Positions 45,269 to 62,783 of a DNA stretch of 64,000 nucleotides are shown here, piece after piece. The stretch covers positions 1 to 64,000 of the forward strand of contig NZ_PVNG01000004.1 in assembly GCF_003001935.1 (NCBI RefSeq), given 5' to 3'. Each line of letters starts with the position of its first letter. Position 1 is the first letter of the stretch. Below the pieces are notes generated by a model that was not told the DNA's origin, ran no database searches, and was given only the letters and a program-made list of their open reading frames with translations. Source of the stretch: Nonomuraea fuscirosea. Its GTDB lineage: Bacteria; Actinomycetota; Actinomycetes; Streptosporangiales; Streptosporangiaceae. The position numbers and the translations under genes are program-made.

Positions 45269-45282
45269 CCTGGCCGCACCCG

Positions 45283-45323: not shown

Positions 45324-45341
45324 ATCAGGGGAGGAGACCGC

Positions 45342-46349: not shown

Positions 46350-46356
46350 CCCGCGC

Positions 46357-46450: not shown

Positions 46451-46483
46451 GTGCTCACTTCAGTAGAAAGAGGGGGACCTCAC

Positions 46484-47539: not shown

Positions 47540-47589
47540 TCCTCCCTCCGCGCCGTACGGGAGCGCCGGGTACGACGCGTGCGGCGGGG

Positions 47590-48795
47590 TCAGAGGGTGA
47601 GGCGGTAAAGGGTGAGGGGTCGGCCGCTGGAGCCGCTGGTCAGGTTGCCGGTGCGTTCGGCCAGCCCCGCCAGCTCCAGCCGGTGCAGCATCCGCCGCGC
47701 CGTCCGCTGCTGCACGGCCAGCCGGTCGGCGATCTCGCGCGTGGTCAGCGCGGCACCCTTCGCCGCGTCTCGGGCTTCGAGGAGTTTCTCCAGCGTCGGC
47801 ACCGACAGCCCCACCCGGCGGGCCAGCACCGGCAGGTTGTGCTCACCGGGCGGCTCGTCGGCCACCGACTCCAGCACGATGTCGGTGTCGGCGCGCAATG
47901 ACAGCACCGCGGCCACGCCGCCGATCCGCCGGGCCCTGGACAGCGCCCGGCGGGCCAGGCTCTCGGCCTCGGCGGCACTGCGCCCGAGGCCGAACCCCAC
48001 CCGCGCCACGCCGCCGCGCGCCGCCAGCCTGGACAGCATGGGCAGCCGGGTGAAGCCGCCGGTGGCGTCGTGCAGCGGGCCCCGGGTGGTGACGAGGAGG
48101 TGGGTGCCGTCGCCGAAGGCGGCCAGCGTGCCGCCCAGCGCGCCGGCCTCGCGCAGCAGCCCTTCCTCGCCGTCCACCTCCAGCAGGCCGAGCGCGATCT
48201 GCGCGTCCTCCTGCGCCTGTCCCTCGGCGGTCAGCAGGAGCCGGCGCAGCGCCACGCGGACCGAGTGCACCGACGGCGCCAGCCGCAGCACGTGCAGCTC
48301 GTCGCGCAGCGCCTCGTGCACCGAGCTGAGGCAGGTGATCACCGGATGGGCGGGCCCGCGGCGGTGGAAGGCGACGACCTTCTTGGAGGTGGTCTCCGGC
48401 CGGTAGCCGAGGGTGCGCAGCCGTTCGGTGGGCAGTCCGGCCTCGTGGAACGTGGCGGTGACGTCGGCGGGGGAGATGGTGTCGATGGACAGGCAGGTGA
48501 TGTCGTGACCCTCGTGCTGCAGCCGGACCAGGGCGCTGAGCAGCGTCGCGCCCGAGTAGTCGACGAACGCGGCCGGCCGCGACAGCACGTCGGCGGAGCG
48601 GGCCAGCATGTACGGGACGACGCCGGTGAACAGCCAGCCCTCGACCGTGCCCGCATGGGCCTCGACGATGGCCGGGGCCTGCGACTCGTGGTCGTAGTCG
48701 AGCCGCGTCGTGGTGACGCCCGGCTGCTCCTCGCAGGTGGCCGCGACGTCGTCGACCAGATCGTGCGGGCCGACGACTCCGATGACGATACCCAC
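47590..48795 (-). CDS. winged-helix regulator of the 44-63 kb regulon, unassigned family
   Basis: The 401-residue protein has three parts. Residues ~1-160 form an alpha/beta domain (MGIVIGVVGPHDLVDDVAAT, GWLFTGVVPYMLARSADV) resembling a periplasmic-binding or PrpR-N-like sensor. Residues ~195-300 resemble a degenerate nucleotide-cyclase/GGDEF fold (FGDGTHLLVTTRG, VARVGFGLGRSAAEAESLAR). The C-terminal ~75 residues are a winged helix (LTTREIADRLAVQQRTARRM, LHRLELAGLAERTG). I cannot name the family. GTG 48795 follows AGGAGG. The operator at 48816-48829 is in its leader, so it should control itself and the other six sites, most likely as a repressor released by a cluster metabolite. Confidence 0.78.
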   Translation of the reverse strand: MGIVIGVVGPHDLVDDVAATCEEQPGVTTTRLDYDHESQAPAIVEAHAGTVEGWLFTGVVPYMLARSADVLSRPAAFVDYSGATLLSALVRLQHEGHDITCLSIDTISPADVTATFHEAGLPTERLRTLGYRPETTSKKVVAFHRRGPAHPVITCLSSVHEALRDELHVLRLAPSVHSVRVALRRLLLTAEGQAQEDAQIALGLLEVDGEEGLLREAGALGGTLAAFGDGTHLLVTTRGPLHDATGGFTRLPMLSRLAARGGVARVGFGLGRSAAEAESLARRALSRARRIGGVAAVLSLRADTDIVLESVADEPPGEHNLPVLARRVGLSVPTLEKLLEARDAAKGAALTTREIADRLAVQQRTARRMLHRLELAGLAERTGNLTSGSSGRPLTLYRLTL

Positions 48796-48811
48796 CCGCG
48801 CCTCCTTCTCC

Positions 48812-48860
48812 TATAACGGTCTAGACCGAAAGGTTATCCGGTGACCCTGCACTTTCCCAA
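48812..48860. promoter_or_regulatory. regulon operator site 3 with divergent promoters
   Basis: ACGGTCTAGACCGA (48816-48829) lies between the regulator gene and the DegT gene. For the regulator, minus-strand TTGGGA (48860-48855), 18 bases and TAACCT (48836-48831) put the start of transcription in the operator. For DegT, TATAAC (48812-48817) could be a -10 box without a clear -35. Autoregulation is likely. Confidence 0.7.
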
Positions 48861-50052
48861 CATGGCCGAACCCGCGGGCCGTACCCTCGGCGACGAGGAG
48901 GTGGCGGCGCTGGAGCGGGTGATCCGCTCCGGCATGCTCAACTCCGTGTGGGGGACCGAGGCCAGGTCGCTCGAACGCGAGGTCGGCGAGCTGTACGGCT
49001 CGCGCCACGCGATCGCGTGCAGCTCCGGCACCGCGGCCCTCCATCTGTCGGTCGTGGCGGCGGCGCCGGACCCCGGGGACGAGATCATCACGACGCCGAT
49101 CACGGACTTCGGCACCGTGGCCCCCATCTTGGCGCAGAACGCCGTTCCTGTCTTCGCCGACGTGGACCCGTCCGACGGCAACCTCGACCCGGACTCCGTG
49201 GCCGCGCTCATCGGGCCGCGCACCCGGGCGATCATGGCCGTGCACCTGTTCGGGGCGCCGGCCAGGATCGGCGCCCTGCGCGCGCTGGCGGACGAGCACG
49301 GGCTCACGCTCATCGAGGACTGCGCCCAGGCGTGGCTCACCGAGCTGCCTGGCGGAGCCCTCGCCGGCACGGGCGGGCACGTCGGCACGCTGAGCCTGCA
49401 GCAGTGGAAGCACATCACCTGCGGCGACGGCGGGCTGACCGTCACCGATGACGACGAGCTGGCCAGGCGGATGCGGTTGTTCGCGGACAAGGGCTGGGAC
49501 CGGGCCGCGGGCCGTTCGCACGAGAGCCTGGGCCTGAACTACCGGATGACCGAGCTGCAGGCCGCGGTGGCCCGCGCCCAGCTCGCCAAGCTGCCCGGCG
49601 TCGTGGCGGCGCGGCGCCGCACCGCCGTCCAGCTCATCGAGGCGCTGCGCGACCTGGACGGCGTGCTCGACAGCGGCGCGCACGAGGTCGCCGGCGCGGG
49701 GGAGGGAAGGCGCGTGATCCGGTTGCCCAGGCCGGACGGGCACGCGTGGTGGTTGTTCCCGCTCGTCCTGCCCGGCGGGGACGCCCCCGAGCTGGCCGGG
49801 CACCTGAGCGCGGCCGGGATTCCGGCGCGGTCCGGATATCTCCAGGATCCGCTCAACCGGGCGCCGCTGTGGCGGCAACCGATCTACGGGACCTCCTCCT
49901 ACCCCCTGGACGGCTACCGCCCCGCCGCCTGCCCGGCCGCTGAGCGCCTGGTCGACAGCACACTGCTGGTCATCGACTGGAACGAGCACTACACGTCGGA
50001 GCACGTGGCGGCCATCGCCGGCGCCGTGCGGTGCTACCAGGCGAGACCCTAG
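48841..50052 (+). CDS. DegT/DnrJ/EryC1/StrS-family PLP enzyme, copy 1
   Basis: The 403-residue protein is a fold-type I PLP enzyme: AIACSSGTAALHLSVVAA binds the cofactor phosphate, TLIEDCAQAW holds the PLP-ring Asp, and the Schiff-base Lys is in LSLQQWKHITCGDGG (~187). Family members transaminate keto sugars or cyclitols, or work in reverse. In a regulon with an importer and lyases, removal of an amino group from an amino sugar is the natural guess. GTG 48841 has AAAGG upstream. A second family member lies at 61563. Confidence 0.9.
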   Translation: MTLHFPNMAEPAGRTLGDEEVAALERVIRSGMLNSVWGTEARSLEREVGELYGSRHAIACSSGTAALHLSVVAAAPDPGDEIITTPITDFGTVAPILAQNAVPVFADVDPSDGNLDPDSVAALIGPRTRAIMAVHLFGAPARIGALRALADEHGLTLIEDCAQAWLTELPGGALAGTGGHVGTLSLQQWKHITCGDGGLTVTDDDELARRMRLFADKGWDRAAGRSHESLGLNYRMTELQAAVARAQLAKLPGVVAARRRTAVQLIEALRDLDGVLDSGAHEVAGAGEGRRVIRLPRPDGHAWWLFPLVLPGGDAPELAGHLSAAGIPARSGYLQDPLNRAPLWRQPIYGTSSYPLDGYRPAACPAAERLVDSTLLVIDWNEHYTSEHVAAIAGAVRCYQARP

Positions 50053-50072
50053 TTACGTTCATGTATCAGCCA

Positions 50073-50116
50073 TTGACCGGTTGTCCCCTCCTCACTAGGT
50101 TTCGGTCAGGACCGGT
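50073..50116 (+). promoter_or_regulatory. promoter and regulon operator, site 4
   Basis: TTGACC (50073-50078), 17 bases and TAGGTT (50096-50101) form a promoter. The operator core TCGGTCAGGACCGG (50102-50115) follows directly at the start point. It controls the ABC importer genes. Confidence 0.78.
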
Positions 50117-50137
50117 ATTCAGGAAAGGAAGCCACCG

Positions 50138-51385
50138 ATGAGGAAGGCAGCGGCAGCCGGAATCGTGACCGCGCTGAGTGTCGTGATGACCGGGTGCGGA
50201 TCCGGTGGCTCGGGCTCGGAGAAGAGCACGGTCACGCTCTGGATGTACCCCGTCATCATGGACCAGGCCGCGAACAAGTCCTTCTGGGACAAGGTCGAGA
50301 AGGACTTCGAGGCCAAGAACCCCGCCGTCGACGTCACCATCGACCAGCAGCCGTGGGACGGCCGCCAGGAGAAGGTCACCACCGCGCTGGCCTCCAGGAA
50401 GGGCTTCGACCTGGTCGTGCTCGGCCCCGACCAGATCCCGCAGTACGCCCAGCAGGGCACGCTCGAACCCGTGGACGACGTGGTCGCCCCCGAGAAGGCC
50501 GCCTACCTGCCCAACTCGCTCACCGCGCTGAGCGTGGACGGCAAGCTCTACGGCGTGCCGATCTACCAGACGATCACGGCCCCCATCTACAACAAGAAGC
50601 TGTTCGCCGACGCGGGCGTCACCAAGGTGCCCGAGACCTGGGCGGAGCTCAAGGAGGCCGCGCCCAAGCTGGCCGCGGCGAAGGTCGCCGTGCTCGACTA
50701 CCCGGGCAAGCCCGAGGTCTCGCTCAACCAGAGCTTCTACCCGATCCTGTGGGCCAACGGCGGCTCGGTCTTCGCCCCCGACGGCAAGAGCGTGGTCGTC
50801 AACAACCAGCAGGGCGTCGACAGCCTGCAGTACCTGCTCGACCTCAAGGCCGCCGGCGGCCTGCCGGAGAACACCGCCAGCAAGGGCAACGACATCGAGG
50901 GAGGCCCGCTCGCGGCCGGCAAGACCGCCCTCTACCACGCGGCCACCGCCATCCAGGCCGACCAGCTCGGCGCCGCCATCGGCGCCGAGAACGTGGGCAT
51001 CGGCCTGCCGCTGGAGGGCACGAAGCGGGTCGCGTTCGGCATCCCCGGCGGCCTCGTGCTGGCCAAGCACTCAGAGATCAAGGACGCGGCCAGGAAGTTC
51101 GCCGCCTACGTCGCCTCCGCCGAGGTGGCCGGGCCGCTGGCCAAGGAGTCGGGCTTCTTCTCCGCGCGTACCGACGTGACCATCCCCGGCCAGTCGGAGG
51201 CGTCCAAGGAGTTCGCCAAGTCGCTGGAGTTCGCCTTCCCCGGTGACACCCACCCCAAGGCCCGGCAGGTGATGTCGATGATCGCGGCGCACGTACAGGC
51301 GGCGCTGATCGGCAAGGAGGATGCCAAGGCGGCGCTGGACGCGGCGGCCAAGGAGGCGAACGAGCTGCTCGCCGCGGGCAGCTGA
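50138..51385 (+). CDS. sugar-type ABC transporter, solute-binding lipoprotein
   Basis: The 415-residue protein has a lipoprotein signal (ITALSVVMTGC-like, lipobox MTGC at ~23) and the family 1 extracellular solute-binding fold: VTLWMYPVIMDQAANKSFWD, DLVVLGPDQIPQYAQQGTLE, YGVPIYQTITAPIYNKKLFA. It should capture a carbohydrate-like ligand outside the cell. AGGAAAGGAAG precedes the ATG. It is followed by a GC-rich hairpin (51396-51418) and two permease genes. Confidence 0.93.
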   Translation: MRKAAAAGIVTALSVVMTGCGSGGSGSEKSTVTLWMYPVIMDQAANKSFWDKVEKDFEAKNPAVDVTIDQQPWDGRQEKVTTALASRKGFDLVVLGPDQIPQYAQQGTLEPVDDVVAPEKAAYLPNSLTALSVDGKLYGVPIYQTITAPIYNKKLFADAGVTKVPETWAELKEAAPKLAAAKVAVLDYPGKPEVSLNQSFYPILWANGGSVFAPDGKSVVVNNQQGVDSLQYLLDLKAAGGLPENTASKGNDIEGGPLAAGKTALYHAATAIQADQLGAAIGAENVGIGLPLEGTKRVAFGIPGGLVLAKHSEIKDAARKFAAYVASAEVAGPLAKESGFFSARTDVTIPGQSEASKEFAKSLEFAFPGDTHPKARQVMSMIAAHVQAALIGKEDAKAALDAAAKEANELLAAGS

Positions 51386-51395
51386 CCCGACCGGA

Positions 51396-51418
51396 GCCCG
51401 CGCGCCGCCCGCGCGGGC
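51396..51418 (+). terminator. intercistronic hairpin between binding-protein and permease genes
   Basis: GCCCGCGCG (51396-51404) and CGCGCGGGC (51410-51418) form a perfect 9-bp stem with a 5-nt loop. Such hairpins stabilise or partially terminate the message so that more binding protein than permease is made. Confidence 0.7.
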
Positions 51419-51438
51419 CCCGTCCTTTTCGGAAAGGT

Positions 51439-52314
51439 GTGAACCCGGTGCGTCATCGCCTGCGCGATCCGATCACAGGCTTGCTGTTCGTCCTGCCCAT
51501 GCTCGTGCTCTTCCTGATCTTCAAGATCTTCCCCACGCTGGGCGCGGCGGGCATGAGCCTGACGAACTGGAACATCGGCGGCGAATGGGACTTCATCGGC
51601 GCCGACAACTACACCCGGCTCGTGAACGACCCGAACTTCTGGTCCAGCCTGCGCGCCACCCTCGTCTACACGGCCATCTACGTGCCGCTGGTCGTGCTGG
51701 TCTCGCTCGGCACCGCGCTGCTGCTCAACGCGATCGTCTTCATGCGCGGGCTGTTCCGCGGCATCCTCTTCCTGCCGTACGTGACCAGCTTCGTCTTCGC
51801 CGGCCTCATCTGGCGCTGGATCTACGAGTTCGACGGCCTGATCAACGGCCTGCTGGCCAAGCTGGACATAGCCCCCGTCGCCTTCATGGAACGCTCGGAG
51901 CTGGTGCTGCCCGCGCTGGCCCTCGTCTCCTGCTGGAAGGGTTTCGGCTACTCGATGCTGATCCTGCTGGCCGGGCTGAAGGCCATCCCGGGCTCGTACC
52001 TGGAGGCGGCCAGGGTGGACGGCGCGAGCGCCTGGCAGCGCTTCCGCTCCATCACGCTGCCGCTGCTCAAGCCCGCGCTCTTCTTCGTCCTGGTGATCGA
52101 GACGATCGCCTCGTTCCAGGTGTTCGACACGATCTACGTGATGACCGGCGGCGGGCCGGCCAAGGCCAGCTACACCCTCATCTACGGCATCTTCGAACGC
52201 GGCTTCAGGTTCTGGGAGTTCGGCTACGCGGCCACGTGGGGGATGGTGCTGTTCGCCGTCGTCCTGGTCGTCTCGCTGATCCAGCGCCGCTTCGTCGGCA
52301 GGGAGAACACGTGA
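51439..52314 (+). CDS. sugar ABC transporter permease (MalF type)
   Basis: The 291-residue protein has six membrane helices and the cytoplasmic EAA loop EAARVDGASAWQRFRSITLP (~193), where the ATPase binds. The N-terminus (MNPVRHRLRDPITGLLFVLP) is typical of the MalF/UgpA group. GTG 51439 follows GGAAAGG. It overlaps the next permease gene by four bases (GTGA). No ATP-binding subunit is encoded in the window. Confidence 0.93.
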   Translation: MNPVRHRLRDPITGLLFVLPMLVLFLIFKIFPTLGAAGMSLTNWNIGGEWDFIGADNYTRLVNDPNFWSSLRATLVYTAIYVPLVVLVSLGTALLLNAIVFMRGLFRGILFLPYVTSFVFAGLIWRWIYEFDGLINGLLAKLDIAPVAFMERSELVLPALALVSCWKGFGYSMLILLAGLKAIPGSYLEAARVDGASAWQRFRSITLPLLKPALFFVLVIETIASFQVFDTIYVMTGGGPAKASYTLIYGIFERGFRFWEFGYAATWGMVLFAVVLVVSLIQRRFVGRENT

Positions 52315-53177
52315 CGCTGACCGCCGCACGGCCCGCCGCCGCCAGGACCGGCCGCCCGGCCCCCGCGCCCCGCCGCCGGGGCCGCAGGTGGGCGCTCTAC
52401 ACCCTGCTCACGGTCATGTCGCTGCTGACGATGGGGCCGTTCGTCGCGATGCTCGTCGTGGCGCTCTCGCCGCGCGGCGAGCCGACCCTGCCCGCGCGCT
52501 GGCCCGCCTCGCTCACCTTCGACAACATCGCGCAGGTCCTGAACGCCTCCGGGTTCGCGGAGTGGACGATCAACTCGCTGGTCTACTCGGCCGTCTCCGT
52601 GGTGATCATCCTGCTGACGGCGTCGATGGCCGGGTACGCGTTCGCCAAGAAACGTTTTCCCGGCCGCGACGCCATGTTGTGGACGTTTCTCGCCACCATG
52701 ATGGTGCCGTTCCAGGCCACGCTCATCCCGCTCTACGTGCTGGTGTCCGACTTCGGCGGGGCCGACACCTTCTGGGGGCTGATCGTCCCGACACTGGCGA
52801 ACTCGCAGGCCGTTTTCCTGATGCGCCAGTTCATCCTCGGGCTGCCCGACGAACTGTTCGACGCCGCCAAGGTGGACGGCGCCTCTGAGCTGCGCGTCTA
52901 CTGGACGATCGTGGTGCCGCTGACCAAGCCGATCCTGGCCACGCTGGGCGTGTTCGTCTTCCTGTGGCACTGGAACGACTTCCTGTGGCCCCTCGTCATC
53001 TCGCAGAGCGACGCCACGCGGACGCTGACCGTGGGGCTGACGGTGCTGAAGACGGAGGAGATGCAGTGGGCGACGCTCATGTCCTCGGCCGCGGTGTCGG
53101 CGGTGCCCTGTCTGCTGGTGTTCTTCCTGCTGCAGCGCTACCTGGTCAACAGCATCGCCATGACCGGCCTGAAGTGA
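52311..53177 (+). CDS. sugar ABC transporter permease (MalG type)
   Basis: The 288-residue protein has six membrane helices and the EAA loop DAAKVDGASELRVYWTIVVP (~190). The N-terminal ~25 residues are a disordered basic/Pro stretch. GTG 52311 overlaps the stop of the first permease gene, with GGGAG upstream. It forms the heterodimeric channel with the previous protein; energy must come from a shared MsiK-like ATPase encoded elsewhere (known for actinobacteria, inferred here). Confidence 0.93.
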   Translation: MTLTAARPAAARTGRPAPAPRRRGRRWALYTLLTVMSLLTMGPFVAMLVVALSPRGEPTLPARWPASLTFDNIAQVLNASGFAEWTINSLVYSAVSVVIILLTASMAGYAFAKKRFPGRDAMLWTFLATMMVPFQATLIPLYVLVSDFGGADTFWGLIVPTLANSQAVFLMRQFILGLPDELFDAAKVDGASELRVYWTIVVPLTKPILATLGVFVFLWHWNDFLWPLVISQSDATRTLTVGLTVLKTEEMQWATLMSSAAVSAVPCLLVFFLLQRYLVNSIAMTGLK

Positions 53178-53212
53178 CCTGGCGCTCAGGTGACCCGGGC
53201 CTGAAGTGACCT
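53166..53212 (+). repeat. 15-bp direct repeat spanning the permease stop codon
   Basis: GGCCTGAAGTGACCT occurs at 53166-53180 and again at 53198-53212 (32-bp period). The first copy contains the TGA of the permease gene. Confidence 0.8.
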
Positions 53213-53286
53213 GAGCCGAACGCCTACGCTTGGCCGACGGAGCCGTCCGGCGGGCCGAGGTGGCCGTGCCGGTGAGGGGAGCGACG

Positions 53287-54177
53287 ATGAGCACGCCGAT
53301 CGACCCGCGGGCCGCCCGGTTGCGCGACCGCCTGCGCGGCGCCCTGGTGGCGGCCGCGGCGACGCCGATGGCCGCGTCCGGTGAGGTGGACCTCGACGTG
53401 GCGGAGGCGTACTTCCGCCGGCTGGCCGCAACCGGCGCCGACGCCCTGGCGGTGCTGGCCCACACCGGTCGCGGACCCTACCTCGCGCCGGACGTGCGCG
53501 CCGGGGTGATCGAACGCGCCTGCCGGACCGGTGTCCCCGTGGTCGCCGGCGTCGGCGGCGGCGCCGTCCCGGCCGCCGAGGAGGCCAAGGCCGCGGCGGC
53601 GGCGGGGGCCGGCGGCGTGCTGGTGTTCCCGTCACCGGGCGACCGGGCGGCCCTGCACGACGAGGTGTGGACGGCGGCCGGGCTGCCGATGATCGCGTTC
53701 GACCTCTACACCGCGCCGTGCCCGCCGAACATGCTGCGCGAGGTCGTCCGGCACCCCGGCGTGGCCGGGCTCAAGACGGCGCTGCTGTCGGACGCGATGG
53801 GCTGCCAGGAGGCGATCGCGCTGACCTGCGCGGCGGGCCGGCTGGCCATCACCGGCGAGGACCGCATGTTCGGCCCCTCACTGCTGTGGGGAGCCGAGGC
53901 GGCGCTGGTGGGCATCGCGGCGGCGTCGGTGCCGACGACGGCCGCCGTGCTGCGCGCGTTCCGCCGCGACGACCTGCGGGAGTTCGAACGGGCGTCCGCG
54001 CGGCTGGACCGGCTGGCCGGGGCCACGTTCACGGCCCCCATGGAGGGGTACGTGCAGCGCATGTTGTGGCTGGCCGAGGCGGAGGGCCTCATCCCCGCCA
54101 CCCACGCCTTCGACCCGTACGGCCCCGGCCTCCCCGACGACGAACGCCCCGGCGTGCTGGCAGCGGCCTCCGCCTGA
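53287..54177 (+). CDS. DapA (dihydrodipicolinate synthase)-family aldolase/lyase, copy 2
   Basis: The 296-residue TIM-barrel protein is of normal DapA length. The Schiff-base Lys is in VAGLKTALLSDAM (~160), the Tyr in IAFDLYTAPCPPNM, and the N-terminal AAAATPMAASGEVDLD replaces the GVTPF motif. It should act on a keto acid from the pathway. GAGGGGAG six bases before ATG 53287 decides the start. It ends in front of a strong hairpin and is convergent with the propeller gene. Confidence 0.87.
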   Translation: MSTPIDPRAARLRDRLRGALVAAAATPMAASGEVDLDVAEAYFRRLAATGADALAVLAHTGRGPYLAPDVRAGVIERACRTGVPVVAGVGGGAVPAAEEAKAAAAAGAGGVLVFPSPGDRAALHDEVWTAAGLPMIAFDLYTAPCPPNMLREVVRHPGVAGLKTALLSDAMGCQEAIALTCAAGRLAITGEDRMFGPSLLWGAEAALVGIAAASVPTTAAVLRAFRRDDLREFERASARLDRLAGATFTAPMEGYVQRMLWLAEAEGLIPATHAFDPYGPGLPDDERPGVLAAASA

Positions 54178-54234: not shown

Positions 54235-56172
54235 TCAGATGGCGATGCGGATGAGGTTGCGGCCCTTGAGGCCGTACAGGGCCTTGCGGGACGGGTCGAT
54301 GGTGATGCGGGAGCCGCCGCCGAACCAGTCGCTCGCCAGCCCATCCACGATCTTGCGGGCGGTGAAGGCGACCAGATCGACCTTGTAGACGGCGTCCTCG
54401 TCGCTCGTGTACGCCTTCGTCCCGGACAGCACCAGGTCGCCGCCCCGGTCGCAGACCTTGAGGGTGCGGGTGACCTTGCGTCGGCGCGGGTCGAACTCGA
54501 ACAGCACGCCGTCTCCGGTGATGCCGTACAGGGCGAGCGCCGTGTGCTTGAGGCTCGTGACGGAGGTCGCGCCGGCCACCGGCTCGACCTCCCACGTCAC
54601 CTCGCGGCGCCGCAGGTCGAACGCGGCCAGCCGGGCCGTGGACGTCACCGGCGGTGACCCGAGGCCCTCCTGCGTGCTGGTGCCCAGGTAGACGGTGCCC
54701 AGCCGGGCGGTCAGCGCGAACACCGTCTGGCGCTCGACGACCGGCCGGTAGGTGTCGAGCCGGCCGCTGCGCGGGTCGTAGACGTCGAGCGCGCCGTTCT
54801 GGTGACCGGGCTCCGGCTGGGTGGACATCACGATCAGGCCGGTCGCCCGGTCGTGGCACAGATCCTTGGGCCGGTCCTGATTGTGGCCGGTACGCAGGAG
54901 CAGCTCGGCCTCGGCGTCGCCCGCGCGGTGGGAGTAGAGGGCGGCCTGGGTGTAGACCCCGAGGTACGTGATCCCGTTCGCGGTCATGATGGTCTTCGGC
55001 TCGCCGGGGATCGGCAGCCGGGTGACCTCGCCGGAGGCCAGGTCGTGCACGTCGCAGCCGCCCTTGCCGCCCACGTAGACGCGCTCGCCGTCGCTGTGCA
55101 CGGACATGGGCTCCTCGGGGGCGGCCTTGAAGCCCTTGGCCACGTGGCTGACGTACTCGATGCCGCCGGTCGCGGGGTCGTAGACGAAGACGCCCGGCTC
55201 CTGGACGCCGTAGATGCGGCCCCCGTGCTCCAGGATCCGTACGGTCTGCGCCTCGGGGAACGGCACCCCGAGCACCTCGTACGTGCCGTCCTCGATCCGG
55301 TAGCGGTAGAACGTGCCGGACGGCCGCCCGGCGAAGTACACCCAGCCGTCGTGGATCAGCACCGAGACGACGTACTTCTCGCCCGGCGCGGTGGCCTTGA
55401 CCACCTGGTACGCGGCCGGGTTCGTCTTCTCCAGCACGATCAGCTCGCCCAGCGAGTTCATCCCGCCGGCGATGTGGGTGGCGCTGATCGACATGCTCGA
55501 CACCCAGTCGCGGTCGGCCACCTCGGCGGGCAGCAGCTCGCGCTTGTCGCCGGTCCTCCTGTCGATCGCGACGAGGTGGGCGTTGCTGCCGACGCCGGCG
55601 TAGACGTGGGTGTCGTCGGCCTGGATGCTGCGCACGTACGACTCGCCGGGGGCGGGCTGGCCCAGGTCGCGGCTTGCTCCCGTGGCGGGGTCGTACTCGA
55701 CCACGCGGCCGGGCTGCGAGGTGCCCAGGTAGACCTTGCCGTCGGGCGAGGAGGCCATGGTCCAGATGTAGGGGTCGGGATACTCGGCGACCTTCGTGGT
55801 CGTACCGGTCAGGGTGTCGATCCGGTACAGGTCCGACCTGGAGTGGGTGCCCACGTAGACGTCGGTGCCGACCTTGCACATCGCCCAGATGCCCACGCCC
55901 GAGGTGATGTCGAAGTGGGCGGTGACCTTGTCCTGGCCCAGGTCCCAGGCGCCGACGACGTTGGGCGCCAGGCCGCGCGAGCCGAGGTAGAGCACGTCGC
56001 CGACGAACTCGGCGTTGCCCAGCGGGCTGGTGACGCTGGCCGGGCCGAGGTCGGTGATCGTGCCCTCACGCTCGCGGCCCGCGGCGAGGGCGGGGGTGGC
56101 GGTGAGCGCGGGCAGGGAGGTCACGGCCGCGGTGGCGGCCGCGGCCTGGAGGAAACGGCGGCGGGGGATCAT
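54235..56172 (-). CDS. Tat-exported beta-propeller protein, copy 1
   Basis: The 645-residue protein starts with a twin-arginine signal (MIPRRRFLQAAAATAAVTSL) cut near ALAAG. The rest is a repeat of WD/PQQ-like blades, each with VYVGTHSRSDLYRIDT-, VYLGTSQPGRVVEYDPATG- or LYGITGDGVLFEFDP-type strands, seven or eight in all. No PQQ- or metal-binding cluster is evident. It should act on, or bind, an extracellular substrate of the pathway. GAGGAG ten bases before ATG 56172 sets the start. It is the last gene of an operon with two amidohydrolase-like genes. A Sec-exported relative lies at 57806. Confidence 0.8.
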   Translation of the reverse strand: MIPRRRFLQAAAATAAVTSLPALTATPALAAGREREGTITDLGPASVTSPLGNAEFVGDVLYLGSRGLAPNVVGAWDLGQDKVTAHFDITSGVGIWAMCKVGTDVYVGTHSRSDLYRIDTLTGTTTKVAEYPDPYIWTMASSPDGKVYLGTSQPGRVVEYDPATGASRDLGQPAPGESYVRSIQADDTHVYAGVGSNAHLVAIDRRTGDKRELLPAEVADRDWVSSMSISATHIAGGMNSLGELIVLEKTNPAAYQVVKATAPGEKYVVSVLIHDGWVYFAGRPSGTFYRYRIEDGTYEVLGVPFPEAQTVRILEHGGRIYGVQEPGVFVYDPATGGIEYVSHVAKGFKAAPEEPMSVHSDGERVYVGGKGGCDVHDLASGEVTRLPIPGEPKTIMTANGITYLGVYTQAALYSHRAGDAEAELLLRTGHNQDRPKDLCHDRATGLIVMSTQPEPGHQNGALDVYDPRSGRLDTYRPVVERQTVFALTARLGTVYLGTSTQEGLGSPPVTSTARLAAFDLRRREVTWEVEPVAGATSVTSLKHTALALYGITGDGVLFEFDPRRRKVTRTLKVCDRGGDLVLSGTKAYTSDEDAVYKVDLVAFTARKIVDGLASDWFGGGSRITIDPSRKALYGLKGRNLIRIAI

Positions 56173-56208
56173 GCGCTGGCACTCCTCAGGACGGGTTGGC
56201 CGCACGCT

Positions 56209-56228
56209 ATTACGGCCTAGGCCGTAAT
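56209..56228 (-). promoter_or_regulatory. regulon operator, site 5 (perfect 20-bp palindrome)
   Basis: ATTACGGCCTAGGCCGTAAT is fully symmetric. The stop codon TAG of the upstream amidohydrolase gene lies in its centre, and it stands 37 bases before the propeller gene. It may give this gene its own controlled promoter inside the operon. Confidence 0.78.
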
Positions 56229-56945
56229 GTCCAGATCAAAAAGTCGTACGGCGTTCCGCCACGCGATCAGCTCGGCCGTCTCCGCGTCCAGCCCGGCGGC
56301 CGCCACGGCCCCGAACGCCGACGCCGGGTCGATGAGGGTCGAGTCGGTGCCGAACAGCAGGCGGGTGCGGTCCACCGCCGCCGCGACCCGGGAGACGCGG
56401 CCCGCCGGGGCGTGGGAGTAGCAGGGCTCCAGGTAGAGCCGGTCGCAGGCGTTCGCGGCCTCGATGGCGTACGGGTAACCGTCGGCGCCCATGTGCCCCG
56501 CGATGACCCGCAGGCCGGGCGTGCTCTCACAGACCTCGGCCAGGTCCAGCACCGTGGCGCCCCAGGTGTGCACCAGCGCGGGCACCCCGGCCTCGGCGAC
56601 CATGGCCAGCGCCTCCCGCGTCTGGGGCGAGGAGACGGGCGACCTCGTGTAGTCGGTGTGGATCTTGACCCCGGCGAACCTGCCCGTCGGGAGGTATTCG
56701 CGCAGGTCACGCTCGGCGTCGGCCTGCCTGCGCGGGTTGATCGTGACGTAGCCCAGGTGGCGCTCGCTCGTGGCCAGCCACTCCGCCAGGGCCCGGTTGC
56801 CCGCCGGCGCGTCGTAGATCACCGCCTCGGTGGCCGACACGATCGACAGGGCGATGCCGTACCGGTCCATGGTCGCCAGGTTGGCGCCGGCCACGTCCAT
56901 GGTGAAGAACCACGGGCCCCAGTGGGCGTGCACATCGATGATCAT
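56217..56945 (-). CDS. amidohydrolase-family protein with intact metal site, copy 1
   Basis: The 242-residue TIM-barrel protein is of the amidohydrolase-2 type. Metal ligands: VHAHWG (HxH) at residues 5-7, the candidate Lys/His region GVKIHTDYTRS (~92), HTWGAT (~125), GHMGADG (~150), and the Asp in LLFGTDSTLID (~198). It should hydrolyse or decarboxylate a C-N, C-O or C-C bond in a ring or carbonyl compound with Zn or Mn. ATG 56945 overlaps the stop of the previous gene by four bases. Its partner gene upstream encodes a relative without these ligands. Confidence 0.85.
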   Translation of the reverse strand: MIIDVHAHWGPWFFTMDVAGANLATMDRYGIALSIVSATEAVIYDAPAGNRALAEWLATSERHLGYVTINPRRQADAERDLREYLPTGRFAGVKIHTDYTRSPVSSPQTREALAMVAEAGVPALVHTWGATVLDLAEVCESTPGLRVIAGHMGADGYPYAIEAANACDRLYLEPCYSHAPAGRVSRVAAAVDRTRLLFGTDSTLIDPASAFGAVAAAGLDAETAELIAWRNAVRLFDLDITA

Positions 56946-57727
56946 CCGAACAGCCTCCTCGCGTTGCCGCCCGCCACCGCGGCGACCTCGTCCGGCGTCA
57001 GGCCGCTGGTCGCCAGGCGCAGCAGGGGGACGATCGGCTCGTAGTGGGGGGTGCGCGAGCCGAACACGAGACGGTCGGCCGGGACGGTCTCCAGCGCGTC
57101 GGGGGAGTTGAGCAGGCGGGTCGAGGTGTGGAACCCGGGCTCGTCGGCGGCGGCCACCAGGAAGTCGCCGAGGTGGTAGAAGTGCGTGTCCAGGAAGACG
57201 ACCTTGGCCTCCAGACCGGAGAACGGCTGCCAGAACCTGCGCACGTCACCGCCGGTCAGCACGACCAGGCCCGACAAGGCGGCCCGTCTGGCGACGTGGC
57301 GGACCGAGGGGAAGCCCGCCTCCACGCCCTGCTCGTCGGGGAACAGCCTGATCGCCCGCACGCCCAGGGGTTCGAGGCGGTCGATCTCGCGTACGGCGCC
57401 GATCGGGTCACGCAGATCGACGGTCCCGACCGGAATCACGTCCACCGCCCCCGCCGCGTCTCTTCCGGTCCCGGCGCCGCCACTCCCGGAGTCTCCGATG
57501 GTGCCACGCAGGGACAGGACCTCGTCGTTGCCCGACCGCACGTCGAACAGCGCGGCCCGCAGCGACGCCACCGCCCCCGCCCTGACGCGGTGCCCGGCCA
57601 GGGCCGCGAGCACGGATTCCGGGGTGCCCGGCGGGCCGTCGCGGTCGGGATACGCGCCGACCAGCACGTCCACGTCGAAGGTCACCTCAAGCTCGCCGAC
57701 CAGTCCACCAGCGTCGAACGCCGTCAC
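56942..57727 (-). CDS. degenerate amidohydrolase-family protein, copy 1
   Basis: The 261-residue protein has the same barrel pattern as its downstream neighbour, but the metal ligands are gone: FDAGGLVGEL stands for HxH, RAIRLFPDEQG for the Lys/His strand, and FGSRTPHYEP for the Asp strand. It keeps the surrounding hydrophobic framework and the C-terminal GGNARRLFG. A pseudoenzyme that pairs with the intact copy is the simplest reading. GTG 57727 is chosen because GGAGG lies just upstream; a further ATG would lie inside the operator. It heads the operon at 57727-54235. Confidence 0.72.
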   Translation of the reverse strand: MTAFDAGGLVGELEVTFDVDVLVGAYPDRDGPPGTPESVLAALAGHRVRAGAVASLRAALFDVRSGNDEVLSLRGTIGDSGSGGAGTGRDAAGAVDVIPVGTVDLRDPIGAVREIDRLEPLGVRAIRLFPDEQGVEAGFPSVRHVARRAALSGLVVLTGGDVRRFWQPFSGLEAKVVFLDTHFYHLGDFLVAAADEPGFHTSTRLLNSPDALETVPADRLVFGSRTPHYEPIVPLLRLATSGLTPDEVAAVAGGNARRLFG

Positions 57728-57737
57728 GCCGCCTCCA

Positions 57738-57777
57738 TTGACTATTCCCGATCCGCACATTACGGTCTGGGCCAAAA
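57738..57777 (+). promoter_or_regulatory. promoter with overlapping regulon operator, site 6
   Basis: TTGACT (57738-57743), 17 bases and TACGGT (57761-57766) form a plus-strand promoter for the 57806 gene. The operator TTACGGTCTGGGCCAAAA (57760-57777) overlaps the -10 box; its right arm is degenerate. The site also lies upstream of the divergent amidohydrolase operon and may serve both. Confidence 0.72.
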
Positions 57778-57805
57778 TTGGGCAACAACTCGCGGAGGTG
57801 CGGCC

Positions 57806-59929
57806 ATGCCGCGCGGTTCCCTCACGCTCTCAGCGGTCCTGGCCGCCGTGCTCCTCACCACGGCGGCCCCGGCCTCGGCAGCGGTCTTACCCACGCCCCC
57901 CACGTCATCCGGCCCATCAGCCGGCGCACCCTCGCCCGCCGTCCCGGTCACCGCCGAAACAGGCTTCCAGGGCCGCGCGTCCGAGGCCGCCGAAGGGTCC
58001 CGGTCCTGTGCGGGGACGCGGGTGGAGACGTTCGGACCGGCGTCGCTGACCGGCGCGATCGTCGGCGCCGCCGTTCACGACGGCAGGGCGTACGTCGTCA
58101 CCCGCGGCCAGAAGCCGCCCGTGCTGGCCGAGATCGACCTGGCCACGCGCGCGGTCGTCCGGACCGCCCGCCTGCCGGACGCCCCCGCGGCCGGGGAGCC
58201 CGAGGGCGGCTGGGCCACGGCGGTCTCCGGCGGCAAGGTCTACGTCGGCACGTACCCGGTGCCCGACCTCTACCGCTTCGACCCGGCCAGCGGCGAGGTG
58301 ACGCACCTGGCCTCGTTCGGCAAGAACGGCGGCTACATCTGGTCGCTGGCCGCCGCGCCCGACGGCACCCTCTACGCCGGCACGTACCCCGACGGCCGGG
58401 TCAGGGAGTACGACCCGGACACCGGCGCCGTGCGCGACTTCGGCGTGCTCGCCGCCGGCGAGCGCTACGTCAGGGCCGTCGTGGCCGACGACCGCACCGT
58501 CTACGCGGGCCTGCTCGACAAGGGCAAGCTGGTGGCGATCGACCGGGCCACGGGCGCGGTCAGGGAGCTGGCGCAGGGCACGACGGGCATCGGCGTGGTG
58601 GCCGAGCACGGCGACCGGGTCCTCGCGGTCAGCGGGCCGGCCCTGATCGACGTGCGCAAGGACGGCACCGACGTCAGGAACGTCCCCCTGGGCCCGCTCA
58701 GCCTCGACGCGCTCACGGTCGCCGCCGACGGCACCGTCTACGCCACCTCCCGCCCCGACGGCGCGATCCACCGCTACCGTACCGGCGACACCGCCCTCAC
58801 CCCGGTGGCCGATCCGCCGTCGCGGGACGACGAGACCAGGCGGATCGTGCTCACGGACGACGACACCCTCGTCGGGTTCTCCGGCAGCGGCGGCATGTGG
58901 TCGCTGGACCTGCGCACCGGCACGTCCGCGTTCACCGACCTGATCGAGGCGGGCCTGCCCGCCGGAGCCGAGCGCCCGCAGAGCATGCTGCTGGTGCCCG
59001 GCCGCGCCGTCTACGTCGGCGGGCACTTCTTCATGGACGTACGCGACCTGCGTACGGGCGAGCAGCGCAGGTTCCGCGTCCCCGGCGAGCCCAAGGACCT
59101 GGTCCGCCACGGGAACAAGATCTATGCCGCCCTCTATCCCAGCGGCCAGGTCGTCTCCGTCGACCTGCGCACCGACGAGGTCCGCCCGCTGGCCCGCCTG
59201 GGCCACGACCAGCAGCGCCCGTGGGACATCGAGTACGACCCGGGAACCGGCAAGCTGCTGGTCGCCTCCGCCCCGCTGGGCGCCAGGCTGGAGGGCGCCC
59301 TGTCGATCATCGACCCCGGCACCGGCGCGATCGACTCCTACCCGGGCGTCATCCCTGACCAGAGCCTGATGAGCCTGTCGCTCGACTCCCGCGCGGGCGT
59401 CGTCTACCTGGGCGGCGACGTGCTCGGCGGCGGCGGGACGCCGCCGGTCAGAGCGTCGGCCTCCGTCGCGGCCTTCGACCTGCGCACCCGTACGGTGCGC
59501 TGGCAGGTGGACCCGGTCCCGGGCATGCGGACGTTCCAGGACGTCAAGGTGCACGGCGGCCTGCTGTACGGGGTCTACAAGCGCGACTCCGGCACCTGGA
59601 TCGCCCTCGACCCGGCCACCGGGACGGTCAGGCAGCGGGGCGCCCTGTCCGGGTACGGCGAGCTGACCGTGCATCGCGGCCGGGTGTTCGCCGCCACGTT
59701 CTTCGGCGGCGGCAACGCGTACGAGCTGGGCACGGACGAGCCCGGCGGCGGCGCGCTCGGACCCGCCAGGCACCTGGCCACCGGTCTCGGCGACGACTGG
59801 TACACCAACCCGCAACTGCACTTCGAGCCCGGCTCGTGGCAGGCGTGGACCATGAGCGGCCGTCATCTGGCCAGGGTGGACCTGAACCCGCGCTGCCCGC
59901 TCTTGACCGTCACTCCACCGCAAGGCTAA
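57806..59929 (+). CDS. secreted beta-propeller protein, copy 2
   Basis: The 707-residue protein has a Sec signal (LTLSAVLAAVLLTTAAPASA), a Pro/Ser-rich linker (~30-70) and a propeller like that of 54235-56172. Shared features include blades of the type VYVGTYPVPDLYRFDPASG, the segment SASVAAFDLRTRTVRWQVDP (compare ARLAAFDLRRREVTWEVEP in the other copy), and GHDQQRPWDIEYDPGTG. GGAGGTG five bases before ATG 57806 is strong. It is followed ten bases later by the third amidohydrolase-like gene, which has its own promoter. Confidence 0.8.
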   Translation: MPRGSLTLSAVLAAVLLTTAAPASAAVLPTPPTSSGPSAGAPSPAVPVTAETGFQGRASEAAEGSRSCAGTRVETFGPASLTGAIVGAAVHDGRAYVVTRGQKPPVLAEIDLATRAVVRTARLPDAPAAGEPEGGWATAVSGGKVYVGTYPVPDLYRFDPASGEVTHLASFGKNGGYIWSLAAAPDGTLYAGTYPDGRVREYDPDTGAVRDFGVLAAGERYVRAVVADDRTVYAGLLDKGKLVAIDRATGAVRELAQGTTGIGVVAEHGDRVLAVSGPALIDVRKDGTDVRNVPLGPLSLDALTVAADGTVYATSRPDGAIHRYRTGDTALTPVADPPSRDDETRRIVLTDDDTLVGFSGSGGMWSLDLRTGTSAFTDLIEAGLPAGAERPQSMLLVPGRAVYVGGHFFMDVRDLRTGEQRRFRVPGEPKDLVRHGNKIYAALYPSGQVVSVDLRTDEVRPLARLGHDQQRPWDIEYDPGTGKLLVASAPLGARLEGALSIIDPGTGAIDSYPGVIPDQSLMSLSLDSRAGVVYLGGDVLGGGGTPPVRASASVAAFDLRTRTVRWQVDPVPGMRTFQDVKVHGGLLYGVYKRDSGTWIALDPATGTVRQRGALSGYGELTVHRGRVFAATFFGGGNAYELGTDEPGGGALGPARHLATGLGDDWYTNPQLHFEPGSWQAWTMSGRHLARVDLNPRCPLLTVTPPQG

Positions 59930-59948
59930 TTTCGGTCTGTGCCGAAAT
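59903..59948 (+). promoter_or_regulatory. promoter with overlapping regulon operator, site 7
   Basis: TTGACC (59903-59908), 18 bases and TAATTT (59927-59932) form a promoter inside the end of the propeller gene. The operator ATTTCGGTCTGTGCCGAAAT (59929-59948) overlaps the -10 box and the GTG at 59939, whose position six bases after the box suits a leaderless mRNA. Confidence 0.75.
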
Positions 59949-60625
59949 CAGTGCTGGACGCCCACCGGCTCATCGGGCCCGTGCCCTTCGACGACCTGCC
60001 CCGCGACCCGGGGCGGGAGATGGACCGGCTGGGCATCCACCACGCCTGCGTCACCCACACGCTCAGCCTCTACTCCGACGTCCACGCCGGCAACGAGGCG
60101 CTGCTCGGCCTGCGCGACCCCCGGCTCGTCCCGGTGCCCGTCCTGCTCCCCGAAGCGTTCGCGCCCGCCCAGGACTGGGACGTGCCGATGGTCCGCCTCT
60201 GCCCGGCCCGGCACCGGTACGAGCTCACCGGCCCCACGGCGCTGCGCCGGCTGGCGGACCTCGGCGCCGTCGCGGCGATCGAACTCGACGAGACCTCACC
60301 GGCCGAACTCGTCACCCTCACCCGCCGGCTGCCGGAACTGCGCGTCCTGCTGCTCAGCCCCGGCTACCGGCGGCTGCGCGCGATCGGCGAGCTCATGGCC
60401 GAGATCCCCAACCTGTGGCTGGAGATCGGCACCGTCAACACGCAGCGCGGCGTCGAATGGCTGGCCGCGCACTACGGCGCCGAGCGGCTCGTGTTCGGCA
60501 CCGGGGCTCCCGTCATGGACGACTGCGGGCCCCGCTTCCTGCTCGACCACCTCGAACTTCCGGAGGCCGACATCGACCTGATCGCCTCGGGCGGCAGCCT
60601 GCTCGGGCAGGGAGTCCTGCGGTGA
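59939..60625 (+). CDS. degenerate amidohydrolase-family protein, copy 2
   Basis: The 228-residue protein has the amidohydrolase barrel framework but lost the metal ligands: SVLDAHRLIGPV keeps one His of HxH, LLLSPGYRRL replaces the His strand, and LVFGTGAPVMDD replaces the Asp strand. It stands directly before an intact homologue, as on the other side of the cluster. GTG 59939 lies in the operator and would be leaderless; GTG 59951 is an alternative. Its end has been tandemly duplicated. Confidence 0.7.
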   Translation: MPKSVLDAHRLIGPVPFDDLPRDPGREMDRLGIHHACVTHTLSLYSDVHAGNEALLGLRDPRLVPVPVLLPEAFAPAQDWDVPMVRLCPARHRYELTGPTALRRLADLGAVAAIELDETSPAELVTLTRRLPELRVLLLSPGYRRLRAIGELMAEIPNLWLEIGTVNTQRGVEWLAAHYGAERLVFGTGAPVMDDCGPRFLLDHLELPEADIDLIASGGSLLGQGVLR

Positions 60626-60689
60626 TCCTCATCGACCGGCTCGCTTCGGGCGGCGACCTGCTCGGGCGAGGAGTCCTGCGGTGATCCTC
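60572..60689 (+). repeat. 59-bp tandem duplication spanning a stop/start junction
   Basis: Copy one 60572-60630 and copy two 60631-60689 differ at few positions. Each begins ATCGACC and ends GTCCTGCGGTGATCCTC, which contains a GTGA stop/start overlap. Confidence 0.9.
60622..60684 (+). CDS. 20-residue relay ORF created by the duplication
   Basis: GTG 60622 overlaps the stop of the degenerate amidohydrolase (GTGA), and the ORF's own TGA overlaps the GTG of the next gene (60681). The product, VILIDRLASGGDLLGRGVLR, repeats the C-terminus of the upstream gene. It may only serve to pass ribosomes on to the next gene; a function of the peptide itself is not suggested. Confidence 0.35.
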   Translation: MILIDRLASGGDLLGRGVLR

Positions 60690-61427
60690 GACGCGCACGG
60701 CCACCTCGGATCGTGGCCCGACTTCCTCATCCCCGACCCCTCCGCCGCCGGCATGGTGTCCCTGATGGACCGGCTCGGCATCGACGCGATCGGCATCAGC
60801 CACCTGCTCGCCGTCGGCCCGGACGCCGAGGAGGGCAACCGGCTGGCGTTCGCCGCGGCCGGGCGGCATCCCGGCCGGATCGGCGTCTGGCAGGTCTACA
60901 ACCCGCACCAGCGCAACCGGCTCACGGGCAGCGGCGTCTGGGGCGTGAAGATCCATCCGGACGTGCACGAATGCCGGCTCGACGACCGCCGCTACGACCC
61001 CGTGTGGGAGCTGGGCCTGCCCGTGCTCGCCCACGGCCAGACCGGCTCCCCGTGGAGTGACCCGGCGCAGTTCGTCACCGTGGCCGGGCGGCATCCGCAC
61101 GTGCCGCTCCTGCTCGGCCACGCCGGGCTCTGGCCGAACGGCTTCGCCAGGGCGGCCGAGCTGGCGGGCCCGTATCCGAACCTCTTCCTGGAGATCTGCG
61201 GTTCCAAGATGACCGGCCGCTGGATCGCCCGGCTGGCCGAGCTGATCGGCGCCGACCGGGTGATCTACGGCTCCGACGCCTGCTTCCTCGACCTGCGCGT
61301 CGGCTTCGGCCGCGTCGCCCTGGCTCCCCTCACCGATGCCGACCGCACCCTCGTCCAGGGCGCCAACCTCGCCCGCCTGCTGCCCCCGGACCAACCGGCC
61401 GGGCCCGCCCGATCGCCCGAGCCGTGA
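60681..61427 (+). CDS. amidohydrolase-family protein with intact metal site, copy 2
   Basis: The 248-residue protein keeps the ligand set: LDAHGHLGSW (HxH, residues ~5-7), KIHPDVHECR (~93), AHGQTGSPWSDP, LLGHAGLW and VIYGSDACFLD. It is closest in plan to the intact copy at 56217-56945. The reaction is unknown but should use Zn or Mn. CGAGGAG seven bases before GTG 60681 supports the start. The C-terminal ~20 residues are Pro/Ala-rich and are part of a 52-bp tandem duplication. Confidence 0.85.
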   Translation: MILDAHGHLGSWPDFLIPDPSAAGMVSLMDRLGIDAIGISHLLAVGPDAEEGNRLAFAAAGRHPGRIGVWQVYNPHQRNRLTGSGVWGVKIHPDVHECRLDDRRYDPVWELGLPVLAHGQTGSPWSDPAQFVTVAGRHPHVPLLLGHAGLWPNGFARAAELAGPYPNLFLEICGSKMTGRWIARLAELIGADRVIYGSDACFLDLRVGFGRVALAPLTDADRTLVQGANLARLLPPDQPAGPARSPEP

Positions 61428-61562: not shown

Positions 61563-62783
61563 ATGACGCTCGCTCTCTACGGCGGAGCCCCCGTCCGCAC
61601 CTCCCCCTGGCCCGCCTGGCCGCCGCCGCTCGACGGCGCCCAGCGTGAACGGGTCACCGCCGTGCTGGACAGCGGACTGTGGGGCGCCACGCAGGGTGGG
61701 TCCGCGTGCGCGGAGCTGGCCGGCGCGTTCGCTCGCCGGTCGGGGGCCGAGCACGCCGTGACCGTCGGCAACGCCACGCTCGGTCTGTTCGCCGCGTTGC
61801 GCGGGCTCGGGGTCGGGCCCGGCGACGAGGTGATCGTCCCGGCGTACACGTTCGTCGCCTCGGCCACCGCCGTCCTGCTCGCCGGCGCCACGCCGGTGAT
61901 CGCCGACGTGGACGCGGACGACCTGCACCTGTCGGCGGACACGGTACGGGCGGCGCTCACCCCGCGCACCGCCGCGATCATGCCGGTGCACCTCGCGGGC
62001 AGCCCGGCCGACATGGACCCGCTGACCGAGCTCGCCACCCGGCACGGGCTGGCCGTGATCGAGGACGCCGCCCAGGCGCACGGCGCCACCTACCGGGACC
62101 GTCCGGTCGGCGGGCTCGGCGACGCGGGCGTCTACAGCTTCCAGGCGAGCAAGGCGATGACGGCGGGGGAGGGCGGCCTGATCGTCTGCCGGGACCAGGC
62201 GGTGCACGACGCCGTCTGGTCGGTCTGCAACCTCGGCCGCGACCCCGGCGGCGCCTGGTACGGCCATCCGTCGGTCGGCTGGAACCTGCGGCTGACCGAG
62301 ATCCAGGCCGCGCTGCTGCTGCCCTGGCTGGACCGGCTCGACGCGGAGATCGACCGCAGGAACGCGTTCTGCGCCGCCCTCGAACGCGAACTGTCCGCGA
62401 TACCCGCGCCCCCGGGCCGCGAAGGTGCGGGGGAGCCGGGAGAGAGGGCCGGGCCGGGGGGATTCCGGCCCGTGACGGTGGTCCCGCGGCCGGCGGGGAC
62501 CACGCGGGACTCCCGGCACCTGCTGATGCTCAGGCTGCACGTGCCCGTCGACCGGTCGTTCCTGCTGGAGGCCATGGCGGCGGAGGGGGTGCCGCTCGAC
62601 GGCGGCTACCCGCCGCTCGGCACCATGACGGCGCTGACCGGGGCCGGCGCCAGGCCGGAGCCCTGCCCGGCCGCCGAGGCCGCCGCCCGCGAGGTGGTCT
62701 GGGTTCGCCAGTCCATGCTCATGGACGACCCCGCCGGCGCCGCCTGCGTCGCCGAAGCCCTGGCCAAGGTCCTCACGGGCTGA
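61563..62783 (+). CDS. DegT/DnrJ/EryC1/StrS-family PLP enzyme, copy 2
   Basis: The 406-residue protein shows AVTVGNATLGLFAALRGLG, VIEDAAQAHGATY with the PLP Asp and the Schiff-base Lys in YSFQASKAMTAGEGG (~197). It resembles sugar or cyclitol aminotransferases. A variable stretch at ~278-310 is Gly/Pro-rich. AAGGA ten bases before ATG 61563 is present. No operator lies directly upstream, so it is probably read from site 7 as the last gene of the regulon. Confidence 0.9.
   Translation: MTLALYGGAPVRTSPWPAWPPPLDGAQRERVTAVLDSGLWGATQGGSACAELAGAFARRSGAEHAVTVGNATLGLFAALRGLGVGPGDEVIVPAYTFVASATAVLLAGATPVIADVDADDLHLSADTVRAALTPRTAAIMPVHLAGSPADMDPLTELATRHGLAVIEDAAQAHGATYRDRPVGGLGDAGVYSFQASKAMTAGEGGLIVCRDQAVHDAVWSVCNLGRDPGGAWYGHPSVGWNLRLTEIQAALLLPWLDRLDAEIDRRNAFCAALERELSAIPAPPGREGAGEPGERAGPGGFRPVTVVPRPAGTTRDSRHLLMLRLHVPVDRSFLLEAMAAEGVPLDGGYPPLGTMTALTGAGARPEPCPAAEAAAREVVWVRQSMLMDDPAGAACVAEALAKVLTG

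Follow-up and report, generated by a model that had tools for sequence, protein, structure and literature searches.

The stretch of DNA analysed here (the window) comprises positions 1 to 64,000 of contig NZ_PVNG01000004.1 of the actinomycete Nonomuraea fuscirosea, whose genome assembly amounts to 12.18 Mb in 93 contigs (the window lies on the contig designated C4). It contains four genes of the amidohydrolase type, termed A, B, C, and D in the following, which are arranged as two pairs (Table 1): B and A constitute a leftward pair (pair 1) with an overlap of 4 bases, and C and D a rightward pair (pair 2) with a gap of 55 bases. In both pairs, the gene transcribed first is a degenerate one that has lost most of its metal ligands. 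All four open reading frames (ORFs) exceed the curated cut-off of the Pfam family Amidohydro_2 (PF04909; 26.4 bits), with scores of 92.7 (A), 38.9 (B), 40.4 (C), and 74.5 bits (D), such that the two amidohydrolase pairs listed in a preliminary description of this DNA are found where it had placed them. The ORF of B opens earlier than given in the table, at TTG 57775; the GTG is the likely start because orthologues mostly match from around residue 13-18 of the longer ORF.

Table 1. The two amidohydrolase pairs and their surroundings; positions refer to the window.
Feature	Position	Strand	Remarks
A, intact amidohydrolase (PF04909)	56217..56945	-	242 aa; pair 1, second gene
B, degenerate partner	56942..57727	-	~261 aa from GTG 57727; pair 1, first gene
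C, degenerate partner	59939..60625	+	228 aa; pair 2, first gene
D, intact amidohydrolase (PF04909)	60681..61427	+	248 aa; pair 2, second gene
P1, propeller-like, Tat-like (twin-arginine translocation) N-terminus	54235..56205	-	downstream of pair 1; usually beside it
P2, propeller-like	57806..59929	+	PQQ_2 and DUF6923 over cut-off; start set by eye
DegT/DnrJ/EryC1/StrS-family pyridoxal phosphate-dependent aminotransferase	61563..62783	+	downstream of D, usually adjoining it
Catabolic neighbours, largely conserved	44318..54177		nine genes, from family scan and conservation: Gfo/Idh-like oxidoreductase, NAD-epimerase-like protein, two DHDPS-family proteins, regulator-like protein, second DegT aminotransferase, ATP-binding cassette (ABC) solute-binding protein, two ABC permeases (permease label by eye)

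The full set of metal ligands is found in A and D and in neither B nor C. Both A and D carry the HxH motif (VHAHWG in A, DAHGHLG in D), the fourth-strand Lys/His, the His of the fifth and of the sixth strand, and the late Asp of the eighth strand (FGTDS in A, YGSDA in D), the four motif sequences being as previously described. The counterparts in C are LDAHRLIG and FGTGA: in the window, the second His of HxH is replaced by Leu, the Lys by Arg, the further His by Cys, Leu, and Ser (the latter position being Asn in most orthologues), and the Asp by Gly, the first His being retained. In B, the corresponding motifs are FDVDVLVG (MAFFT alignment) and FGSRT, with Asp and Leu for the two His of HxH, Arg for Lys, Phe and Thr for two further His, and Arg for Asp; the sixth-strand His (H182) is retained. 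The preliminary description had recognized both motifs of C and FGSRT of B, whereas the sequence FDAGGLVG, which it had taken for the HxH counterpart of B, is situated 13 residues upstream of the true one, according to both the alignment and the structural model: in the latter, FDVDVLVG holds the first strand (residues 18-24) and FDAGGLVG a short helix (6-10). The loss of ligands in B is unaffected by this shift. The term metal-site-less, also used there, is appropriate insofar as most of the ligands are gone, but not all of them, given H182 in B and the first His in C of the window.

The substitutions were followed through three sets of relatives, which share organisms and are not independent: an order-level search (297 genomes), for which the neighbourhoods of the matches were fetched and the metal sites tabulated; a scan of named genomes with the D-family profile, in which 80 loci were kept of 100 confirmed relatives (40 of the 80 from Nonomuraea); and a class sample of 394 genomes, 22 of which gave matches to the C profile, with 30 loci fetched (its ligand table is confined to rows above 150 bits and does not hold both L273, a weaker C row, and L277, by score or contig edge). 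At the order level, B occurs in 50 genomes (8/62 genera) and C in 54 (10/62 genera), the latter count including genomes that hold only a diverged second-locus type. Concerning the intact genes, all eight metal-site positions of A are invariant in 47/47 rows, and HxH is present in 26/26 named-genome rows. The ligands of D are kept in 46/46 main-locus rows and HxH in the 3/3 second-locus rows with letters (all four second-locus rows keep the ligands, save that of L135, which is without gene start); HxH and Asp are kept in 80/80 named-genome rows, and all five ligands checked in 26/26 class-sample rows.

Concerning the degenerate genes, B exhibits Asp and Leu at HxH in 49/49 rows with letters (27/27 in named genomes) and Arg for the ligand Asp in 48/48 (28/28). 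In C, the second His is found in none of 51, 74 (one gap), and 26 rows of the order, named-genome, and class sets, respectively, and Gly replaces the Asp in 49/51, 74/74, and 26/26, the two deviating rows having Ser (L108) or belonging to a broken gene (L129). The fifth- and sixth-strand His are gone in all unbroken C rows, the fourth-strand His is kept in 10 of the 74 named-genome rows, and the first His is retained in 40/51, 28/74, and 14/26 rows. In the alignment of orthologues that had been proposed as a check, the ligand loss of B and C is thus fixed in every unbroken orthologue tabulated, and because of this recurrence the losses are not due to chance.

The pairing is similarly constant. 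A is joined by B in all 46 fetched loci, with an overlap of 4 bases in 44 and of 1 base in two of them; for C and D, the 4-base overlap is found in 36 of 49 loci, gaps of 1-110 separating the genes in the remainder (start codons picked by homology in each case). Among the 80 named-genome loci, a C-type gene is situated directly upstream of D in 74; in five, C and D form one uninterrupted ORF with the degenerate half first (L164 and L172 of Microlunatus, L174 of Ruania, L201 of Jiangella, L204 of Allorhizocola); and in the last, L149, D begins around 150 bases from the contig end. A C-type gene is also held by 27 of the 30 loci fetched from the class sample, with D adjacent in 26 of the 27, five of these as one ORF (L272, L281-L284); the 27th, L277, ends at the contig edge, and L274-L276 are weak matches of other kinds. 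These five fused loci (family code f93) resemble L201, and together they probably represent one Jiangella kind. Furthermore, where pairs 1 and 2 are separated, each pair stays together: the distance between them is 5.6 Mb on a single contig in G083, they are situated on different contigs in G258 and G228, and in G207 and G084 pair 1 is present without a close C.

Adjacency alone was dropped as a proof, since the genome of the window also possesses a tandem pair of PF04909 members (G000:C17:48016-49723; L014, L010), both of which contain HxH and the late Asp. Many of the same genera harbour a second, diverged C/D locus (L135-L138, L139-L182); those examined carry importer, Gfo/Idh, and class-III or DegT aminotransferase genes of their own. 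A further PF04909 match lies around 17 kb downstream of D, in a frame of 431 residues (G000:C4:78757-79281; L016).

The two degenerate genes differ in what has become of the former metal site. In B, seven of the eight positions are invariant, six with new residues and the seventh with the kept sixth-strand His, and the pocket has therefore been retooled. In C, the lost or varying His positions (both His of the first strand and those of the fifth and sixth) are of about average variability or more (63-79% of columns do not exceed them in variability), and near-invariance is found at H92, G142-Y143-R144, R147, E173, T188-G189, and D194, and almost so at R86. This pattern fits a partner whose value may sit partly outside its own former metal site. 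It bears also on another explanation, namely that B and C are themselves enzymes, working without the usual metal centre on a neighbouring step, adjacency and fusion reflecting pathway coupling or channelling. The invariance in B would be expected in such a case, and gene fusion is likewise known between enzymes of consecutive steps; however, the variability of the lost His positions in C leaves no common replacement active site visible, and the same layout of a dead and a live gene recurs beside differing neighbours (DegT or class-III aminotransferases, different importers), which renders this explanation unlikely. Even less probable appears a role in binding or regulation, in which B and C would act as sensors of substrate or product that govern A and D, or transcription, but would not be stable subunits: the conserved polar pocket of B and regulator-like genes near the clusters would suit it, whereas the natural fusions and the overlaps of 4 bases imply a 1:1 relation.

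The arrangement extends to AT-rich relatives. In a search of the phylum with the L204 fusion (396 genomes, 89 of them matched, mostly over the intact half only), a family (f15) was found in which a degenerate gene directly precedes an intact one in 12 loci of 11 genomes (L220-L226, L228, L230, L241, which is partial, L247, and L252); a further locus, L227, ends at the contig edge. Their intact partners keep HxH, the fifth-strand His, and the Asp in 12/12 rows with letters and the sixth-strand His in 11/12, with Tyr in the remaining one; in G610, a stop cuts the intact gene and not the degenerate one. All four degenerate partners tested fall below the PF04909 cut-off (no match, 14.3, 19.6, and 15.1 bits), and Pfam-based annotation would therefore miss them; more diverged partners of this sort have likely been overlooked. 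For the 17 other loci fetched in this search, no partner was detected by profiles within flanks of 1.5 kb, save in L242 (family f21; L242:1465-3011, G544), where a degenerate-looking gene without HxH and late Asp accompanies the intact one and could represent a separate loss.

In a tree of 90 rows (quick search, supports from the Shimodaira-Hasegawa-like approximate likelihood ratio test, SH-aLRT, only; L242 not included), all 38 degenerate rows (B, C, and AT-rich) form one clade (SH-aLRT 96) and the 37 intact partner rows (A, D, and AT-rich) another (SH-aLRT 94), and the partner groups are arranged much alike within both. Forcing A together with B changes the likelihood by -31.6 (approximately unbiased, AU, test, p = 0.031), and forcing C together with D by -47.3 (p = 0.0024). 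The assumption of the preliminary description that ligands had been lost twice is hence abandoned: the groupings A+B and C+D are rejected, and the degenerate genes constitute a single clade. Judged from these sequences, one loss in an ancestral degenerate-then-intact pair, followed by duplication of the whole pair, would be a better history than two losses. The replacement of the fourth-strand Lys by Arg, common to nearly all B and most C rows (51/51 and 69/73 with letters; class sample 18/26), loosely fits one loss. The first five fused loci fall into three parts of the tree: L204 by the unfused L189, L201 alone, and those of Microlunatus and Ruania around unfused Kribbella. Mirror-tree co-evolution was also considered as evidence of interaction (40 loci; r = 0.907 for A-B and 0.955 for C-D versus 0.58-0.65 across pairs) and set aside, since the preference within pairs is gone without six divergent loci.

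All four genes are under purifying selection, which is loosest in C. The ratios of nonsynonymous to synonymous substitution rates (dN/dS; Nei-Gojobori, pairs with dS 0.05-1, which are not independent, and loci from L125 on left out) have medians of 0.26 (A), 0.27 (B), 0.38 (C), and 0.35 (D), and 90th percentiles of 0.34, 0.34, 0.755, and 0.571, respectively. Thus the pseudogene-like divergence that was looked for is not seen in B and C, whose values are close to those of their partners. That they are merely decaying copies, an idea already disfavoured in the preliminary description, is extremely improbable, considering in addition the fixation of the ligand replacements across genera and the fact that, in almost all loci not truncated by a contig end, B or C is unbroken and adjoins an intact partner. 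The traces of decay that do exist are truncated pieces of B and C in G283 (L129), where the 10 kb fetched contain neither A nor D, and the stop in G610, though the latter affects the intact partner. In L129 (G283:C26), the B piece spans 2667-2930 and the C piece begins at around 4600; the whole set seems to be decaying there.

Structure prediction yields an amidohydrolase barrel for B (best model: predicted local distance difference test, pLDDT, 88.1; predicted template modelling score, pTM, 0.87). Its nearest solved structure is CAC3332 (PDB 3cjp), an uncharacterised amidohydrolase (Z 23.1, root-mean-square deviation, rmsd, 2.5, 216 residues aligned), followed by resorcylate decarboxylase and ACMSD (Z around 21). 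For the natural C-D fusion L204, AlphaFold gave a model with pLDDT 91.1 and pTM 0.91 (five models at 89-91) in which both barrels are well defined. The input alignment consisted of fusions and C rows only, a mixed one with C and D rows having been set aside because MAFFT laid C rows on the D half of the fusions. For two domains of 250 residues, a pTM of 0.91 would suggest a confident mutual placement of the barrels. The intact half of the fusion is likewise nearest to 3cjp (Z 26.6, rmsd 2.2, 228 aligned); among the 50 matches listed for the fusion, nearly all lie on this half, and the degenerate half is barely covered.

Each pair probably constitutes an ancient enzyme/pseudoenzyme complex of two homologous amidohydrolase barrels. 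In the unfused cases the two products would form a heteromer with one catalytic site per pair and, presumably, residues donated across the interface; the natural C-D fusions, the confidently predicted fold of one of them, and the gene overlaps of 4 bases support the heteromer indirectly. The catalytic subunit (A or D) would have a mononuclear metal site of the ACMSD/Amidohydro_2 kind, and the pseudoenzyme subunit (B or C), devoid of a catalytic metal, would stabilise, activate, or complete the active site of its partner. The pair would thus be one obligate complex whose ligands were lost once in an ancestral degenerate-then-intact pair, which was then duplicated as a unit.

Concerning fold and metal ligands, to which the comparison is confined, A and D are like ACMSD and the decarboxylases and hydrolases of Amidohydro_2 (His, His, His, Asp, and the sixth-strand His). 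ACMSD has a zinc site in each of its subunits. It is a homodimer, whereas in the present pairs the metal site is missing from one of the two homologous subunits. ACMSD works as a dimer in which Arg239 of the neighbouring subunit enters the active site (PMC11650718). A metal-less subunit that still supplies an interface and substrate-contacting residues would be a short evolutionary step from such a dimer.

A more specific version, which we offer tentatively, is a composite active site, in which the degenerate subunit reaches into the pocket of its partner with its own invariant residues, neither barrel being an enzyme alone. The arginines of the C-type GYRxLR motif, which follows the lost sixth-strand His, would enter the partner pocket, and this region may be the one where ACMSD presents Arg239 to its neighbour. 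That this composite-site complex would represent an ancient actinobacterial family, with duplication of the whole pair and more than one fusion event, is suggested with the same reserve.

Several observations weigh against the proposed complex. The invariant polar pocket of B (D20, R127, H182, R204, R225) would fit a metal-free enzyme too. Fusions are also known between enzymes of consecutive steps, and one Jiangella kind apparently accounts for six of the ten fused loci. Only the best of the five models of B is good (88; the other four 64-74). The tree comes from a quick search and has long branches within the degenerate rows, and p for the forced grouping of A with B is only 0.031; without the six divergent loci, the mirror-tree correlation is higher for A-C (0.862) than for C-D (0.771) and A-B (0.644). 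Furthermore, C is less constrained than the other three (90th percentile of dN/dS 0.755 versus 0.571 for D), the fifth-strand His is kept in 2 of 49 B rows, both divergent (L127, L128), and in L242 the gene order is reversed, the degenerate-looking gene following the intact one.

Because of the neighbouring genes (Table 1), catabolism of an imported, amino-sugar-like compound is suggested, in which the subunit of the A/D type would most likely hydrolyse or decarboxylate an acidic, amino-sugar-like intermediate. The AT-rich pairs (L249, L250, L224, L252) are accompanied by MttB-like, URO-D-like, fucose-isomerase-like, class-II-aldolase-like, and class-III aminotransferase genes (the fucose-isomerase-like and class-II-aldolase-like matches being below cut-off), and since these neighbours differ, the chemistry may vary between clusters. 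Concerning the propeller-like proteins, P1 has six matches that do not reach the respective cut-off (TAT_signal, PQQ_2, and four further models of the repeat type), and P2 is situated upstream of pair 2 and divergent from B. The N-termini of both look signal-like by eye; some relatives exhibit up to four P1/P2-like matches, and some two tandem P2.

To our knowledge, the best-documented cases of a dead paralogue assembling with its live copy are eukaryotic. The folds of the trypanosomatid prozymes are unrelated to the amidohydrolase fold. In these systems (AdoMetDC and deoxyhypusine synthase), the live enzyme is activated by a dead paralogue with which it forms a heteromer (PMC5201418, PMC3663545); they are eukaryotic and the activation was measured, whereas for the bacterial pairs with B and C we infer it. 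Within bacteria, the inactive dihydroorotase of aspartate transcarbamoylase is an amidohydrolase-type protein required for the complex (PMC4581275); it differs in that its partner is the transcarbamoylase and not an active copy of itself, and no transcarbamoylase family was found among the 16 proteins of the window scanned, a set covering the four genes and most of the cluster. No description of such amidohydrolase enzyme/pseudoenzyme pairs was found in the literature searched, most subscription papers being outside its coverage. What these pairs would add is a dead paralogue retained alongside its live copy, the fold and setting being ones for which that literature gave no description.

The pairs would constitute a large family of bacterial proteins whose catalytic and non-catalytic barrels have remained associated throughout duplication, genome moves, and fusion. 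When such an amidohydrolase is expressed without its partner, an assay may fail for that very reason. With split and fused versions, two paralogous pairs, and pockets either retooled (B) or relaxed (C) on hand, the family would lend itself to studying how the dependence of an enzyme on its dead twin arises.

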